From contig JALOTL010000024.1 in NCBI GenBank assembly GCA_025457915.1, positions 1-61,642 of the forward strand: DNA of 61,642 nt. Reading direction: 5' to 3'. Both the position numbers and the translations under genes were made by a program. This DNA comes from Spirochaetota bacterium (GTDB taxonomy: Bacteria; Spirochaetota; UBA4802; UBA5550). The first letter of the stretch is position 1; the number at the start of each line of letters is the position of its first letter. The notes under the pieces are model-generated. The model was given only the letters and a program-made list of their open reading frames with translations. It ran no database searches and had not been told where the DNA came from. This document shows, piece after piece, positions 6,900 to 15,005 of this stretch.

Positions 6900-8834
6900 T
6901 CAATCCCTGTTGGTCTTTCTTCCTATTCTGGACTCTGCCGCATGGAGTATGGAGCCGAGCATGCCGGAATACGACTTGCTTTTAATCTTGGCCATCTTGG
7001 CCAGATGGCCGTCCCAGCACCATCCGGGATTGGGATTGACTTCGAGAAGTTTGGGATTGCCAAGGGCATCGAGTCTCCAGTCAAATCTGCTGTAATCCTT
7101 GCATTCGAGCCTCTCAAAAAGCTTCAGGCAGCATTCCACTATGAACTTTTCTGTTTCCTCGGGCAGCTGCGCCGGGACGGATGTGATCTTCCAGTATGGC
7201 GAATCCGGTATCCATTTGGCCTCATACGCGCAAATCCTGGGGAGCTCCGGCGGAAGGTTGGAATAATCCTCCTCTATGATAGGAAGCACCTCGTAGGAAT
7301 CCGGAGGGTTGCCGATGATTCCGATGCTCAGGTCCTTGCCGGTCAGGAATTCCTCAACAAGAATAGGTTTTTCATAGCCGGAATTTTCCCTTATCTCAGC
7401 TATGGCATTTACGAGATCCTCTATCCCGTGCGCGACGCTCCTCTGCGTTATCCCGAAGCTTGAATCGCCGAGGTTGGGCTTTACGATTACCGGGAACCTG
7501 AAGGACATCTCATAAATGGAATCCTCCGGTTTTATGAAAAAACCATCCGGGACGGGTATCTCCATTTCCTTGGCTATGCCTCGTACGAGGGATTTGTCGT
7601 AACAGAATGCCAGGCATTGCGGTCCGGAACCGGTATATTCAATTTCCAGAATTTCAAGAACCGAGGGAATATGAAGCTCCTTTCTCGCATCATTGTTGTA
7701 TCCCTCATCGCAGAGATTGAATACAAAATCAATTCTCGGTTTGAGCTTTTCCAGGTCATGGATGATGGTATCGTGGTTGCATAAAAAACTGAAATTATGG
7801 GATTCGACTTCCCTCAACGCGTTTTTAAGCTGGTCTATCGTATAGAAATCATCGTCGTCAAAAACGCTCTGGGGCTTCAACGGATCAAGCTTAGACGGAT
7901 CGCCCAGCAGGACTACTATGTTCTTGATGTCCTCCTTCTTCTTTTTTACGGGCGTCCATTCCTTCCTGACAGAGGCAGTCATAATGATCCTCTTTTCCAT
8001 CATGCCGAGATCCTGGTTCCTCTGCGACCCGGTATTTATCTCTCCATGAAAAGCTATGGTGCTGAATCCTGCGGTGTTCATTATTTCTTCAATGCTTTCC
8101 CTGGTATAAAGCCTTTCGGCGTAGAACTGGTCGGCAATAACGCCCCTCTCGACGTTGGTTATGACCTCCCTCGAAATCAGCCTCTGCCTGTCCAGCGACA
8201 GGGACCTTTCCCTGCAGACGAAATGGCTCTTGTCGATCCATTCCCAGGACCTGGGCTGGAACTGCGCCCTGAGATAATCCCCGTCAGCCACGTCGATCAG
8301 AAGCCTGCCCCAGGGCTTCATGACCCTGAAGACCTCACGTAAAACCCTGAGGTCGTCCTGTATCGTTTCGAAATATCCGAAACTGTTCCCGAGTATCATT
8401 ATTACATCGAACGTATCGTTTGGATATGGAAGATTTCTGGCCTCGCCCTCCCGGAATCTGACCGTGAGGTTCTCCTTCTTGGCCTGGGACTTCGCCTTCT
8501 GTATCAGGTATCTTGAACGGTCCAATCCCTCAACGGAATGAAATCCTCTTCGCGCAAGCTCGAGGGAGTGCCTCCCCTGCCCGCAAGACAGATCGAGTAT
8601 CTTCATTTCCGGGAGCAGGTTCGCAATTTTTAAAAAAAGATCGATCTCGCCGGTAGTAATAATATGATCATCAACTACATCCGCGTCCGTTTTCAGGTAT
8701 GTCGAATTGAAGATTTTACTCCACCAGTCGGGCTGGACGTGTTCTTCCAGGTTGGAAACAGGCCCCAGGGATCTGCAGGGGTCACCGGCAACCCGCGCCT
8801 TTCCCGATAACTTGTTTTTCGATGTGGTCGCCAT
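6900..8834 (-). CDS. Fusion of SAM-dependent methyltransferase and D-Ala-D-Ala ligase-like ATP-grasp enzyme
   Basis: 644 residues with a strong start (AGGAGGAA 9 nt before the ATG). Residues ~60-295 are a class I methyltransferase: motif I LDLSCGQGRHSLELA near 80, acidic VEGLDRS, and NDTFDVIMILGNSFGYF. Residues ~305-644 are an ATP-grasp ligase of the D-alanine-D-alanine ligase type: VFNLCDEG, YTGSGPQCLAFCYDKSLVR, FPVIVKPNLGDSSFGI with the ATP lysine, VEEFLTGKDLSIGI, and the metal-binding end LEVNPNPGWCWDGH. The first half would methylate a small molecule; the second would join a carboxylate to an amine at ATP cost. Both halves look intact, so one polypeptide probably performs two steps on one product. 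The substrate is unknown. Neighbours do not fix it, although the pgs genes raise the idea of peptide-like polymer tailoring, which is weak inference. Confidence 0.88.
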   Translation of the reverse strand: MATTSKNKLSGKARVAGDPCRSLGPVSNLEEHVQPDWWSKIFNSTYLKTDADVVDDHIITTGEIDLFLKIANLLPEMKILDLSCGQGRHSLELARRGFHSVEGLDRSRYLIQKAKSQAKKENLTVRFREGEARNLPYPNDTFDVIMILGNSFGYFETIQDDLRVLREVFRVMKPWGRLLIDVADGDYLRAQFQPRSWEWIDKSHFVCRERSLSLDRQRLISREVITNVERGVIADQFYAERLYTRESIEEIMNTAGFSTIAFHGEINTGSQRNQDLGMMEKRIIMTASVRKEWTPVKKKKEDIKNIVVLLGDPSKLDPLKPQSVFDDDDFYTIDQLKNALREVESHNFSFLCNHDTIIHDLEKLKPRIDFVFNLCDEGYNNDARKELHIPSVLEILEIEYTGSGPQCLAFCYDKSLVRGIAKEMEIPVPDGFFIKPEDSIYEMSFRFPVIVKPNLGDSSFGITQRSVAHGIEDLVNAIAEIRENSGYEKPILVEEFLTGKDLSIGIIGNPPDSYEVLPIIEEDYSNLPPELPRICAYEAKWIPDSPYWKITSVPAQLPEETEKFIVECCLKLFERLECKDYSRFDWRLDALGNPKLLEVNPNPGWCWDGHLAKMAKIKSKSYSGMLGSILHAAESRIGRKTNRD

Positions 8835-10009: not shown

Positions 10010-11077
10010 CTATATTATCGTGATCCCGGGACCTTTATATTTTTTTACTTCCCCAATTATAGCGGATGACTTCAAGCCCGAAACCCTCAGTTCATCAAGC
10101 AGACGTTCCGAATCTTTTTTATCAACGGCAATAAGCAGTCCCCCCGAGGTTTGCGGATCGTGGAATATATCGACAAGGGCCGTATCCACGGGATCTTCAA
10201 CCCTGCAGATCCCGCGCGAAAATTCCCTGTTCCTGTGGAGACCGGCGGGCATCATTCCGGAACAGGCAAAATCGAGCGCACCGGCAAAAACTGACACTCT
10301 TTTCGAATCCACTACCACTTCCAGACCGGATTGTCCGATCATTTCCCGGAGATGCCCCACAAGACCGAATCCGGTCACATCAGTGCAGGCGTGCACATCG
10401 TATCCGAGCATAATTTCCGAGGCCTGCCTGTTTAGTGAAACCATCGATTCAATCATTGGATCCAGGATCCTGCCGTCAAGCGGTTCCGCCTTGTTGGCAG
10501 TTGCCAGTATTCCGGTTCCGACAGCCTTGGTCAGAATTATCCCGTCTCCATCCCTCATGCCGATATTTCTCAAGATCCTTGCAGGATCAGCCATGCCAGT
10601 CACGGAGAGTCCGTATTTTAGCTCATTGTCCTGGACGCTGTGCCCTCCCAGTAGCTGGACCCCTGCCTCTTTCATCCTGTCCAGTCCGCCCTTAAGTATT
10701 TCTTCGAGGACCTCCAGTGGAAATTTTCCGCAGGGAAAGCAAACGATGTTCATCGCCGTAATTGGCTTTCCGCCCATCGCGTAAACGTCGGAAAGGCTGT
10801 TGGCGGCCGCTATCCTGCCGAATGTGAAGGGATCGTCGACAACAGGAGTGATGAAATCAACCGTCTGGACCAGCGCTCTTTTTGCGTCCAACCTGTAAAC
10901 ACCGGCGTCATCGGATGTTTCAGGACCCACGATTACATTTTCATCCCTCGGGATTGAAATGCTGCTCATAACCCTATCAAGGTCGCCCGGACCCATCTTT
11001 GCAGCTCAACCGGCGCCTGTTACTGTTTCCGTCAGCCTTAACGGTTTATTTATTCCGCAATTTTCGCACATAATCAT
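10010..11077 (-). CDS. selD: Selenide, water dikinase (selenophosphate synthase), selenocysteine-containing
   Basis: SelD makes selenophosphate from selenide and ATP. A plain ORF call begins at 10996, but the same frame continues upstream through one TGA (11008-11006) to the ATG at 11077, giving 355 residues. The added N-terminus (RLTETVTGAGUAAKMGPGDL, U = TGA) matches the family start, where E. coli has HGAGCGCK: the TGA sits exactly at the active-site cysteine, followed by the essential Lys. The rest is typical: TSDDAGVYRL, VQTVDFITPVVDDP, AANSLSDVYAMGGKP, TGFGLVGHL and DPQTSGGLLIA. The start overlaps the upstream desulfurase stop in an ATGA, which strongly supports 11077. The organism must therefore decode selenocysteine; selA, selB and selC are not in this window. 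Confidence 0.95.
10981..10993 (-). promoter_or_regulatory. Candidate bacterial SECIS hairpin in selD
   Basis: Starting 12 nt after the TGA, the minus strand reads GGTC-CGGGC-GACC, a 4-bp stem with a 5-nt loop inside the coding sequence. Position and size suit a bacterial SECIS element bound by SelB, but the stem is short and I could not fold it properly. Confidence 0.4.
11006..11008 (-). other. In-frame TGA read as selenocysteine in selD
   Basis: TGA (minus strand 11008-11006) stands at the catalytic Cys/Sec position of SelD, between TGAG and AAKMGPGDL. The frame is open on both sides, and family similarity continues across it. Confidence 0.9.
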
Positions 11078-12237
11078 TTCCCTTCAGTTATTTCTATCAA
11101 CGCGTCAACCGCCGTGTCAACTTCTTTGTCAGTATTAAAAATCCCGAACCCGAATCTCAGTGTGCCAATGGGATAGGTACCTATCGTCCTGTGGACCAGC
11201 GGAGCACAGTGAAGTCCCGGCCTGCACATTATGGAAAAATTATCGGAGAGGACCTGGGAAATCCATGCCGGGTCTTTTTCTTTTATATTGAAGGCGACAA
11301 TTCCGCAGTTGTTCATTTTTTTTGAAAAACATTGAAACCCTTTGATTTTGTTCTCAGCCGAGGAAATAAAATATTCCGCCAGAAGACGCCTGTGTTCATA
11401 AACAGCCTGGGGGCCGCCAGCGTATTCCTCGATAAATCTCACGCCCTCGTTAAGCCCTATTATTCCCGCCGCATTCAATGTGCCGCTTTCAAAGCGGTCC
11501 GGCAGGAAATCCGGCTGTTCGGTACTTTCAGAACCGCTTCCGGTTCCGCCGAACCTGAGCGGCCTGATCCTTTTATAATCAAAGGACCTTGATATCAGGA
11601 GTCCGCCTGTTCCGGCGGGACCGTAAAGGGATTTGTGGCCTGTGAAAGCGAAAAGATCTATCCCGAGTTCATCCATATCTACCGGTACAGATCCGGCTGA
11701 TTGCGCGCCGTCCACTAAAAACGCAATCCCTGCCTTTTTGCAGATTTTCCCGATTTCCTTCAGATCCTGAACGATCCCGGTCACGTTCGAAGCGTGATTT
11801 ACGATTACCAGTTTCGTGCTCCCATTAATTTTAACGGCGATATCGTCCGGATCGATAATCCCGTCTCCCGAGGCCGCTGCCGAACCAAGGGAAATTAGAC
11901 CCATTTTTTCCAGCTCCCTCAGGGGCCTGATCACGCTGTTGTGCTCGAGTGAAGTAGTAACAACATGCCCCCCTTTGTGCATCAGACCCATTATCGCAAG
12001 ATTGAGGGCATCGGTCGCATTCATGCAGAATATGACCCTTAGGGGATCGCCCAGTCCGAAAAAATCCGAAATCCTCCCCCTTGATTCAAACACCATCCTC
12101 GCCGAAGCAGCGGAAAGCGCGTGGCCCGACCTGCCTGGATTTCCGCCGTCATTCCTCATGAATTTCTCGATGGATGATATCACAGGTTCAGGTTTAGGGT
12201 AGGATGTTGCCGGATTGTCGAAATATATTAATTCCAT
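11074..12237 (-). CDS. Cysteine desulfurase-like class V aminotransferase
   Basis: 387 residues from the ATG at 12237. A longer frame from 12333 adds 32 residues unlike the family, whose proteins begin near MELIYFDNPATSYPKP. PLP enzyme of the NifS/SufS/Csd superfamily: NATDALNLAI, TSLEHNSVIRPL, LVDGAQSAGSVPVD with the PLP-binding Asp, FTGHKSLYGPAGTGGL with the PLP Lys, and a C-terminal MCRPGLHCAP active-site Cys loop. It removes sulfur (or selenium) from cysteine (selenocysteine). This EGGP-type subfamily often sits beside selD. Here its stop overlaps the selD start (ATGA, 11074-11077), so a role in supplying selenium to SelD is likely but inferred. It follows the hydrogenase operon terminator on the same strand. 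Confidence 0.9.
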   Translation of the reverse strand: MELIYFDNPATSYPKPEPVISSIEKFMRNDGGNPGRSGHALSAASARMVFESRGRISDFFGLGDPLRVIFCMNATDALNLAIMGLMHKGGHVVTTSLEHNSVIRPLRELEKMGLISLGSAAASGDGIIDPDDIAVKINGSTKLVIVNHASNVTGIVQDLKEIGKICKKAGIAFLVDGAQSAGSVPVDMDELGIDLFAFTGHKSLYGPAGTGGLLISRSFDYKRIRPLRFGGTGSGSESTEQPDFLPDRFESGTLNAAGIIGLNEGVRFIEEYAGGPQAVYEHRRLLAEYFISSAENKIKGFQCFSKKMNNCGIVAFNIKEKDPAWISQVLSDNFSIMCRPGLHCAPLVHRTIGTYPIGTLRFGFGIFNTDKEVDTAVDALIEITEGK

Positions 12238-12430: not shown

Positions 12431-13996
12431 TCAGCAGACTCTGAATTTGGATATCTCCCGCCCGCCCTCTACTATATGAACCGCGCAGGCTATGCACGGG
12501 TCAAAGGACCTTACCACCCTGGCGGCCTCTATGGGATTGTTTACATCGGAAATCGGCGTGCCGATAAGCGCCTGCTCCACGGGACCCCTTGTTCCGTTAT
12601 CGTCCCTGGGTCCGCAGAACCAGGTGGTGGGAACGACGCACTGGTAATTCTCAATCTTCTTGTTCTTTACTACTATCCAGTGGCCGAGCGCGCCCCTCGA
12701 AGCCTCGACAAGCCCCTGTCCTTCGCCGCTGTCCGGTATTTCATATTCGTTCCTCGGTTTCCCGCCGACCTCGAGCTGATCGAGCCATTCCTTCGCGTTC
12801 TTGCAGATAAGTTTGGCTTCGATTGCTCTCGAAGCATGCCTGCCCAGTACTGAAAATACAGCAGACAGGTCCGCCTTGAAAATTTTGAGGAGATCGTCCA
12901 CTTCTTTCTTTACGTCGGCGTTGTTTGAGAGATAGCTGATGACGACCCTGGCCAGCGGACCCACTTCCATGCCCAGACCGTTGTACCTCGGGGCCTTCAG
13001 CCAGGTATAGGCTCCGCCCTTATGAGGATCCGGATTGGTTTCACCCTTGTACGGATGCAGGTTCGACCCGGAATTGTATCTCGCGTATTTCACCTGTTCC
13101 TTGATCAGATCGGTATCCAGTTTATCAAGCTTGCCGTTTGCGTAAACTCCACGCTGCATCATGAATTTTTTATCTTCATTGTCCTGGTCGAACAGGCCAT
13201 AGGACATGAAATTGTTGAATTTGCCTATCTTGAAGTAATCCGGGAATGTTTTCGCGACGGCAATGACATGATTGACATAGGTGTTGTTTATGAACTTCTC
13301 GACTTCTTTAAGAAGGCTCCTGTATTCCCTTATCCTGTCGCTGGTCGGAACCTGGGTGACGCCGCCCGGAACAAGCCCGATCAGGTGGGGCACTCTTCCG
13401 CCGAAGAGGGCGACCATCTTGTGGGCCTTGGCCCTGATCTCAAGGGCCTTGACATAACCCGCAATGGCATCAATATTGGTGTCGACGTCCTTAATATAGA
13501 AATTACCCTCATACCTGGGCAGGAAAGGCGCAACGGCAGTCAATGCGTCAGGCCTGTTTTTCTTCGCCTCAATCTCGCCCTGGGCCCATTCCTTGAGCCT
13601 GTTTATTCCGGAATCTCCGCCTTTATACTTCAAAAGGGCCGTTATATCGACGAAGTCAAGCGCCGCAAGGTGATAAAAGTGTATCAGGTGCGAATGAAGA
13701 TAGTTTGCAGCCAGAACAAGGTTCCTCAGGATCCTTCCGTTATTATTGGGCTTGATCCCGAATGCGCCGTCAAGGCTTTTGCTGGATGCTATGCCGTGTG
13801 ATACCGGGCATACGCCGCATATCCTCTGTGTTATCTGGTTCGCGTCTACGGGGTTTCTTCCCTTGAGAATGGATTCGTAACCCCTGAACATGTCCCCTAT
13901 GCTCCATGCATCCACCACCTTTCCATTCTGGACCTCGAGTTCAATTGAAAGGTGTCCTTCAATCCTGGTGATGGGATCTATTAATACCTTAGCCAT
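12431..13996 (-). CDS. [NiFe] hydrogenase large subunit (group 1, periplasmic)
   Basis: 521 residues. It carries the Ni-Fe active site that splits or forms H2. The N-terminal L1 motif RICGVCPVSHG (near 58) and C-terminal L2 motif DPCIACAVH provide the four Cys ligands; all are ordinary cysteines (TGC in L2), so it is not a selenohydrogenase. After the L2 His a 14-residue tail (IVEGGREISKFRVC) remains, which the maturation protease would cut off. The start MAKVLIDPITRIEGHL is standard. It overlaps the end of the small-subunit gene by 8 bp. Without its own signal it travels with the Tat-exported small subunit. It is the last gene of the operon, before a strong terminator. Confidence 0.96.
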   Translation of the reverse strand: MAKVLIDPITRIEGHLSIELEVQNGKVVDAWSIGDMFRGYESILKGRNPVDANQITQRICGVCPVSHGIASSKSLDGAFGIKPNNNGRILRNLVLAANYLHSHLIHFYHLAALDFVDITALLKYKGGDSGINRLKEWAQGEIEAKKNRPDALTAVAPFLPRYEGNFYIKDVDTNIDAIAGYVKALEIRAKAHKMVALFGGRVPHLIGLVPGGVTQVPTSDRIREYRSLLKEVEKFINNTYVNHVIAVAKTFPDYFKIGKFNNFMSYGLFDQDNEDKKFMMQRGVYANGKLDKLDTDLIKEQVKYARYNSGSNLHPYKGETNPDPHKGGAYTWLKAPRYNGLGMEVGPLARVVISYLSNNADVKKEVDDLLKIFKADLSAVFSVLGRHASRAIEAKLICKNAKEWLDQLEVGGKPRNEYEIPDSGEGQGLVEASRGALGHWIVVKNKKIENYQCVVPTTWFCGPRDDNGTRGPVEQALIGTPISDVNNPIEAARVVRSFDPCIACAVHIVEGGREISKFRVC

Positions 13997-15005
13997 TTAT
14001 AATACCTCCATTCCTGAGATTAAGAACAGCCTCGCGTACGGCGGGATGCTCGATTTTTTCTATTTCTTCAAGCTTCGCTTCCAGGTGTTTGTAAATGCCC
14101 CTCTTGCCGTAATCAGGGAAAACGCTTTCGGTGCAGCCTATGCACCCGCCACCGCATTCGGTACAGGAGTTCATTCCGCCGACCCATTTCCTGTTGGGAA
14201 TATCGCAGCCGGAATCCATTCCAAGGCAGCCCAGGTTGTAAAGGCAGCCCTTATCGCCCCAGTGTTTGGCGAATACGCCTCGCTTGTATTCGCTCAGGTG
14301 TTCGCACTGGTCATGGACGGTCTTTCCATAATACATCTTGGGCCTTCTGAATTCGTCAAGCGCAGGCACCTCTTTCTTTAAAAGTACATGAAGCAATGTC
14401 CCCACCATCCAGTCAGGATGAGGAGGACATCCAGGTACGTTTATGAGCTTGTTCTTGATTTCCGGCAATACCTCCACTGTCGGCTTGGCGCCTGTAGGAT
14501 TATCGCCGTTCGCCCTCAGCTTCCCGGCCGGTATTCCGCCGAACGCTGAGCAGGTTCCGATATTTACAACATAAAGCGCGTTTTTGGCAAGGCTTTCAAA
14601 CCATTCCCTCGCGCCAACCGCTTTTCCGTTTATTTTGCCTATTGTGCAGTATTCGTCCGATTTGGTCGGGATTGAGCCTTCCACAAGAAGGACGAAATCC
14701 TTTCTCTTTTTATCCACGGCCTCTTTCAGGACCTTTATAGCGACATCGCCCTGTCCGCCCATCAGTGTCTGATGGAAATTGAGACTGATATACTCCGTGA
14801 TAACAGCTACAATCCCCGGATCAAGATAGTTTAACAAAGAAACCGAACAACCGGAACATGACTGTGCCTGAATCCAGATCACAGGAGTTCTCCCCGCCGC
14901 TTTTTCCAACGCCTTTTTACAACCCTGGAACATGACGCTGGGGAACGTCAGGGCTGCAGCAGTTCCTCCCATGATTTTCAGGAACTCGCGTCTATTCAAT
15001 GCCAT
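13989..15005 (-). CDS. [NiFe] hydrogenase small subunit with Tat signal
   Basis: 338 residues. It holds the iron-sulfur relay. A twin-arginine signal opens the protein (NRREFLKIMGG, then a hydrophobic stretch), so the enzyme faces the periplasm. Proximal cluster: AQSCSGCSVSLL near 50 and later VPGCPPHPDW. Distal cluster: HDQCEH...CLYNLGC. Medial region: NSCTECGGGCIGCTES. The proline usually found in the medial loop is not evident and extra cysteines occur, so the medial cluster could be 4Fe-4S instead of 3Fe-4S (inference). The C-terminus lacks the hydrophobic anchor seen in membrane-bound HyaA types. AGGAGG lies close before the ATG. Gene order is cytochrome, protease, small, large. Confidence 0.95.
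   Translation of the reverse strand: MALNRREFLKIMGGTAAALTFPSVMFQGCKKALEKAAGRTPVIWIQAQSCSGCSVSLLNYLDPGIVAVITEYISLNFHQTLMGGQGDVAIKVLKEAVDKKRKDFVLLVEGSIPTKSDEYCTIGKINGKAVGAREWFESLAKNALYVVNIGTCSAFGGIPAGKLRANGDNPTGAKPTVEVLPEIKNKLINVPGCPPHPDWMVGTLLHVLLKKEVPALDEFRRPKMYYGKTVHDQCEHLSEYKRGVFAKHWGDKGCLYNLGCLGMDSGCDIPNRKWVGGMNSCTECGGGCIGCTESVFPDYGKRGIYKHLEAKLEEIEKIEHPAVREAVLNLRNGGIING

Follow-up and report, generated by a model that had tools for sequence, protein, structure and literature searches.

Genes and features at the selD locus

The window, that is, the whole stretch of 61,642 nucleotides of Spirochaetota DNA analyzed here, carries on its minus strand a gene that we identified as selD, directly preceded by a gene of the class V aminotransferase / cysteine desulfurase family. 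The following features were recognized:

10010..11077, minus strand: selD, predicted to encode a full-length selenocysteine (Sec)-containing selenophosphate synthetase (match to TIGR00476 and translation with TGA as U)
11006..11008, minus strand: in-frame TGA at the catalytic position, predicted to be read as Sec (alignment with 2yye and 3u0o; conserved in relatives)
10980..10994, minus strand: hairpin resembling a bacterial SECIS, in which the arms GGUC and GACC (10993-10981) enclose the loop CGGGC and are closed by an additional G-U pair
11074..12237, minus strand: gene upstream of selD, which it overlaps by ATGA; matches TIGR01977 and belongs to the class V aminotransferase / cysteine desulfurase family

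The selD frame extends for 355 amino acids from the first ATG (11077) to the stop at 10010, with the TGA at 11008-11006 as its sole interruption; when this codon is translated as U, the protein reads MIMCENCGINKPLRLTETVTGAG-U-AAKMGPGDL.... The product scored above the cut-off of two NCBIfam models, TIGR00476 (369.6 bits, cut-off 125) and NF002098 (316.7 bits, cut-off 299). As the earlier note had claimed, the first ATG (11077-11075) overlaps the TGA stop of the upstream gene (11076-11074) as ATGA. That translation starts there is less certain, since a second ATG at 11071, two codons further on, has the more favorable distance from an AAGGG motif (8 nt, as against 2 nt for the first ATG). The start is therefore uncertain by two codons, and the true one may be the second ATG. 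An ORF finder without recoding returned 10996-10010 (328 amino acids), exactly the truncated annotation that had been anticipated; automatic gene callers would start selD at this position and lose the catalytic residue, which makes the locus a matter for annotation.

The product of the upstream gene scored 422.5 bits against TIGR01977, over the cut-off of 377. In five relatives (L022, L023, L024, L025 and L029), a homolog of this gene is located near selD. Against NF040779, the model of the selenocysteine lyase SclA, it reached 336.9 bits, below the cut-off of 525. In Enterococcus faecalis, the similar enzyme SclA is encoded in a selD operon and has a preference for selenocysteine (reviewed in PMC13188914). 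The upstream enzyme is a candidate selenium donor, although this role is only suggested because the score lies below the SclA cut-off.

Further upstream lie the genes of a NiFeSe-type NiFe hydrogenase (12431-15005; NF033181, 690 bits), of the small subunit of this enzyme and of a maturation protease. This hydrogenase was considered as a selenoprotein and rejected on its sequence, which has a Cys (DPCIACAVH) at the position occupied by Sec in NiFeSe enzymes; it keeps this Cys although the organism can make Sec. In relatives G004 and G017, a hydrogenase homolog with 40% identity has one in-frame TGA. In ORF 6900-8834, elsewhere in the window, a methyltransferase domain is joined to an ATP-grasp domain at the C-terminus that resembles D-Ala-D-Ala ligase.

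Position and conservation of the TGA

The earlier note had placed the TGA at the catalytic Cys/Sec position of SelD and proposed an alignment of the N-terminus with known Sec-containing SelD proteins. When this SelD was aligned with two solved structures, 2yye and 3u0o, homology was found on both sides of the TGA, and U24 and K27 matched the catalytic Cys/Sec and the conserved Lys that follows it in the N-terminal loop (GAGUAAKMGPGDL here, SSGCAAKVGPGDL in 2yye and GAGCGCKISP in 3u0o), in agreement with that placement. The structure 2yye is that of the SelD of Aquifex aeolicus, which naturally contains Sec and of which 2zod and 2zau are further structures. The two proteins share the Sec/Cys at the same aligned site, followed by AAKxGPGDL, but they belong to different lineages, and the one studied here has at its N-terminus a short extension containing a CxxC motif (MCENCG). 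The Cys-type SelD of E. coli (3u0o; selD b1764) belongs to the same protein family and has the same catalytic position, with a Cys codon in place of the TGA.

The alignment also bears on the possibility that functional SelD starts at the ATG located after the TGA (10996, Met28), without the Sec loop. This codon does open an ORF of 328 amino acids; however, SelD homology runs on through the TGA towards the N-terminus, Ile or Leu replaces Met28 in most family members, and a protein begun at Met28 would be missing the catalytic residue. We consider such a late start extremely improbable, and the full-length frame with Sec at the catalytic position is the reading followed below.

Conservation of the TGA was examined in 20 genomes of the same family, including that of the window, with stops read through. 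A Sec-type SelD was present in 17 of them, and each of these genes had exactly one internal stop, a TGA, which occupied the catalytic codon in 17 of 17 cases, beyond what chance would give; within the family, the UGA is kept in every Sec-type SelD found. The three genomes that yielded no Sec-type SelD are 72-83% complete. Among named genomes of Deltaproteobacteria, Bacillota and Actinomycetota, the TGA was found at the same site in 27 of 28 SelD loci (the remaining one, L052, was unparsed), in a sample skewed to close relatives because the scan patterns were derived from this SelD protein.

These data are difficult to reconcile with an ordinary Cys-type SelD in which an error of sequencing or assembly had turned TGC or TGT into TGA. 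Such an error would fit the draft state of the assembly (50 contigs) and the fact that the Cys type is the commoner form of SelD among prokaryotes (PMC4561486). Nevertheless, the same TGA appears in the SelD genes of 16 other family genomes and in distant lineages, and the genome has the Sec machinery described below. Because the TGA recurs in genomes of several further genera, an error is in practice ruled out, its probability being close to nil. A Sec-containing SelD is a well-known arrangement in many bacteria: Mariotti et al. (2015) surveyed reference prokaryotes and found Sec in about 19% of their SelD genes, always at this position (PMC4561486), and the selD described here adds one further case.

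Selenocysteine machinery and the hairpin after the TGA

A search of the genome for selA, selB and selC, which the earlier note had put forward as a check, detected all three: tRNA-Sec (selC; 72.7 bits, anticodon TCA), SelA (457.7 bits) and SelB (284.3 bits) are encoded in one cluster on contig C47, a contig other than that of selD. A genome lacking selB and selC, which that note had named as a refutation of its claim, is thus not what was found. SelB carries the winged-helix domain SelB-wing_3, which binds the SECIS. Within the family, selA was found in 18 of the 20 genomes, and in all 15 of those that are at least 90% complete. Alternative readings of the UGA, such as tryptophan through a change of the code or non-Sec readthrough, were also considered. 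No support for these was found; TGA serves as the stop of genes in the window, including the upstream aminotransferase, and a tRNA-Sec with the TCA anticodon is present, all of which leaves a non-Sec reading with a negligible likelihood compared with Sec.

Two molybdopterin oxidoreductases encoded in the same genome (L077 and L079) have one in-frame UGA each, within motifs typical of formate dehydrogenases (CARLUHSSTVAGL and QARIUHSATVAGL), and are probable selenoproteins. The genome also encodes the tRNA selenouridine synthase SelU (305.9 bits). Therefore, SelD is probably not the only selenoprotein of this organism, and the selenophosphate that it makes is probably used for tRNA modification as well.

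A short hairpin beginning 12 nt after the TGA had been pointed out previously, and GGUC-CGGGC-GACC does start 12 nt downstream (10993-10981). The bacterial SECIS model that we used specifies an apical loop of 3-9 nt with a G among its first two nucleotides, an upper stem of 4-16 bp, a distance of 16-37 nt from the UGA to the loop, and a minimum free energy of -7.5 kcal/mol or lower (PMC13188914). As to geometry, the hairpin fits this model: the loop CGGGC has 5 nt with G in second place, the stem has 4 bp plus the G-U pair, and the spacing is 16 nt. In contrast, the stability of this single sequence was no better than that of shuffles (z about 0). The 49-nt stretch that includes the lower stem reached -11.6 kcal/mol and the upper hairpin alone about -5, the energy rule being reached only when the lower stem is counted in, and 16% of the synonymous recodings of this selD folded at least as well.

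A different picture emerged from the 17 family members considered together. The mean folding energy of their region after the TGA is -8.4 kcal/mol, versus -3.2 kcal/mol when each gene is recoded synonymously from its own codons. This region ranked first of 52 segments scanned along the gene (mean z of -2.6), whereas the other segments stayed near zero (standard deviation 0.31) and none resembled it. Other lineages fold at the same place with different sequences (GGCCAGG/CCUGGCC in Bacillota, GAUCCAG/CUGGAUC in Desulfobacula), and the Cys-type selD of E. coli exhibited no excess hairpin stability after its Cys codon. No compensatory changes were observed in the family alignment, a count that is uninformative because the hairpin pairs hardly vary, and no Rfam family passed its gathering threshold when the window was scanned. 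Judging from the family comparison, the hairpin downstream of the TGA is subject to selection over and above that on the encoded protein, and the family contributes a well-supported group of SelD genes in which the UGA is accompanied by a SECIS hairpin under clear selection.

Proposed reading of the UGA and additional SelD copies

The claim of the earlier note that SelD is itself a selenoprotein is thus supported, at the level of sequence, by the frame, the alignment of the catalytic position, the conserved TGA, the complete set of selC, selA and selB, and the selected hairpin. We regard it as nearly certain that selD encodes a selenoprotein whose UGA at 11008-11006 is read as the catalytic Sec through selC, SelA, SelB and the hairpin. 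The ribosome would read this codon using tRNA-Sec; SelA would make the Sec-tRNA from selenophosphate, the product of SelD itself, with selenium possibly supplied by the upstream desulfurase-family enzyme, and SelB would deliver it while attached to the hairpin that lies shortly after the UGA. The Sec would then be the catalytic residue in the flexible N-terminal loop of SelD. From the sequence features, we infer the insertion of Sec, the catalysis and the dependence of the enzyme on its own product. Because SelD would need this product, and the UGA can terminate translation when selenium is short, selD could function in this lineage as a selenium-sensing switch with positive feedback, a role that we consider unlikely.

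Additional SelD sequences were observed in two relatives. Besides its Sec-type SelD, G013 encodes a second one, 41% identical and of the Cys type (GGCSAK; L083:4264-5325), which could act as a selenium-independent starter. A homolog of the gene upstream of selD adjoins it, and its cluster includes a TIGR01977-like aminotransferase and a small protein that by eye resembles TusA/YedF. In G006, a second N-terminal SelD fragment (L082:4999-5124; 45% identical) retains the TGA in frame and continues without the rest of SelD; it is apparently a decayed partial duplicate.
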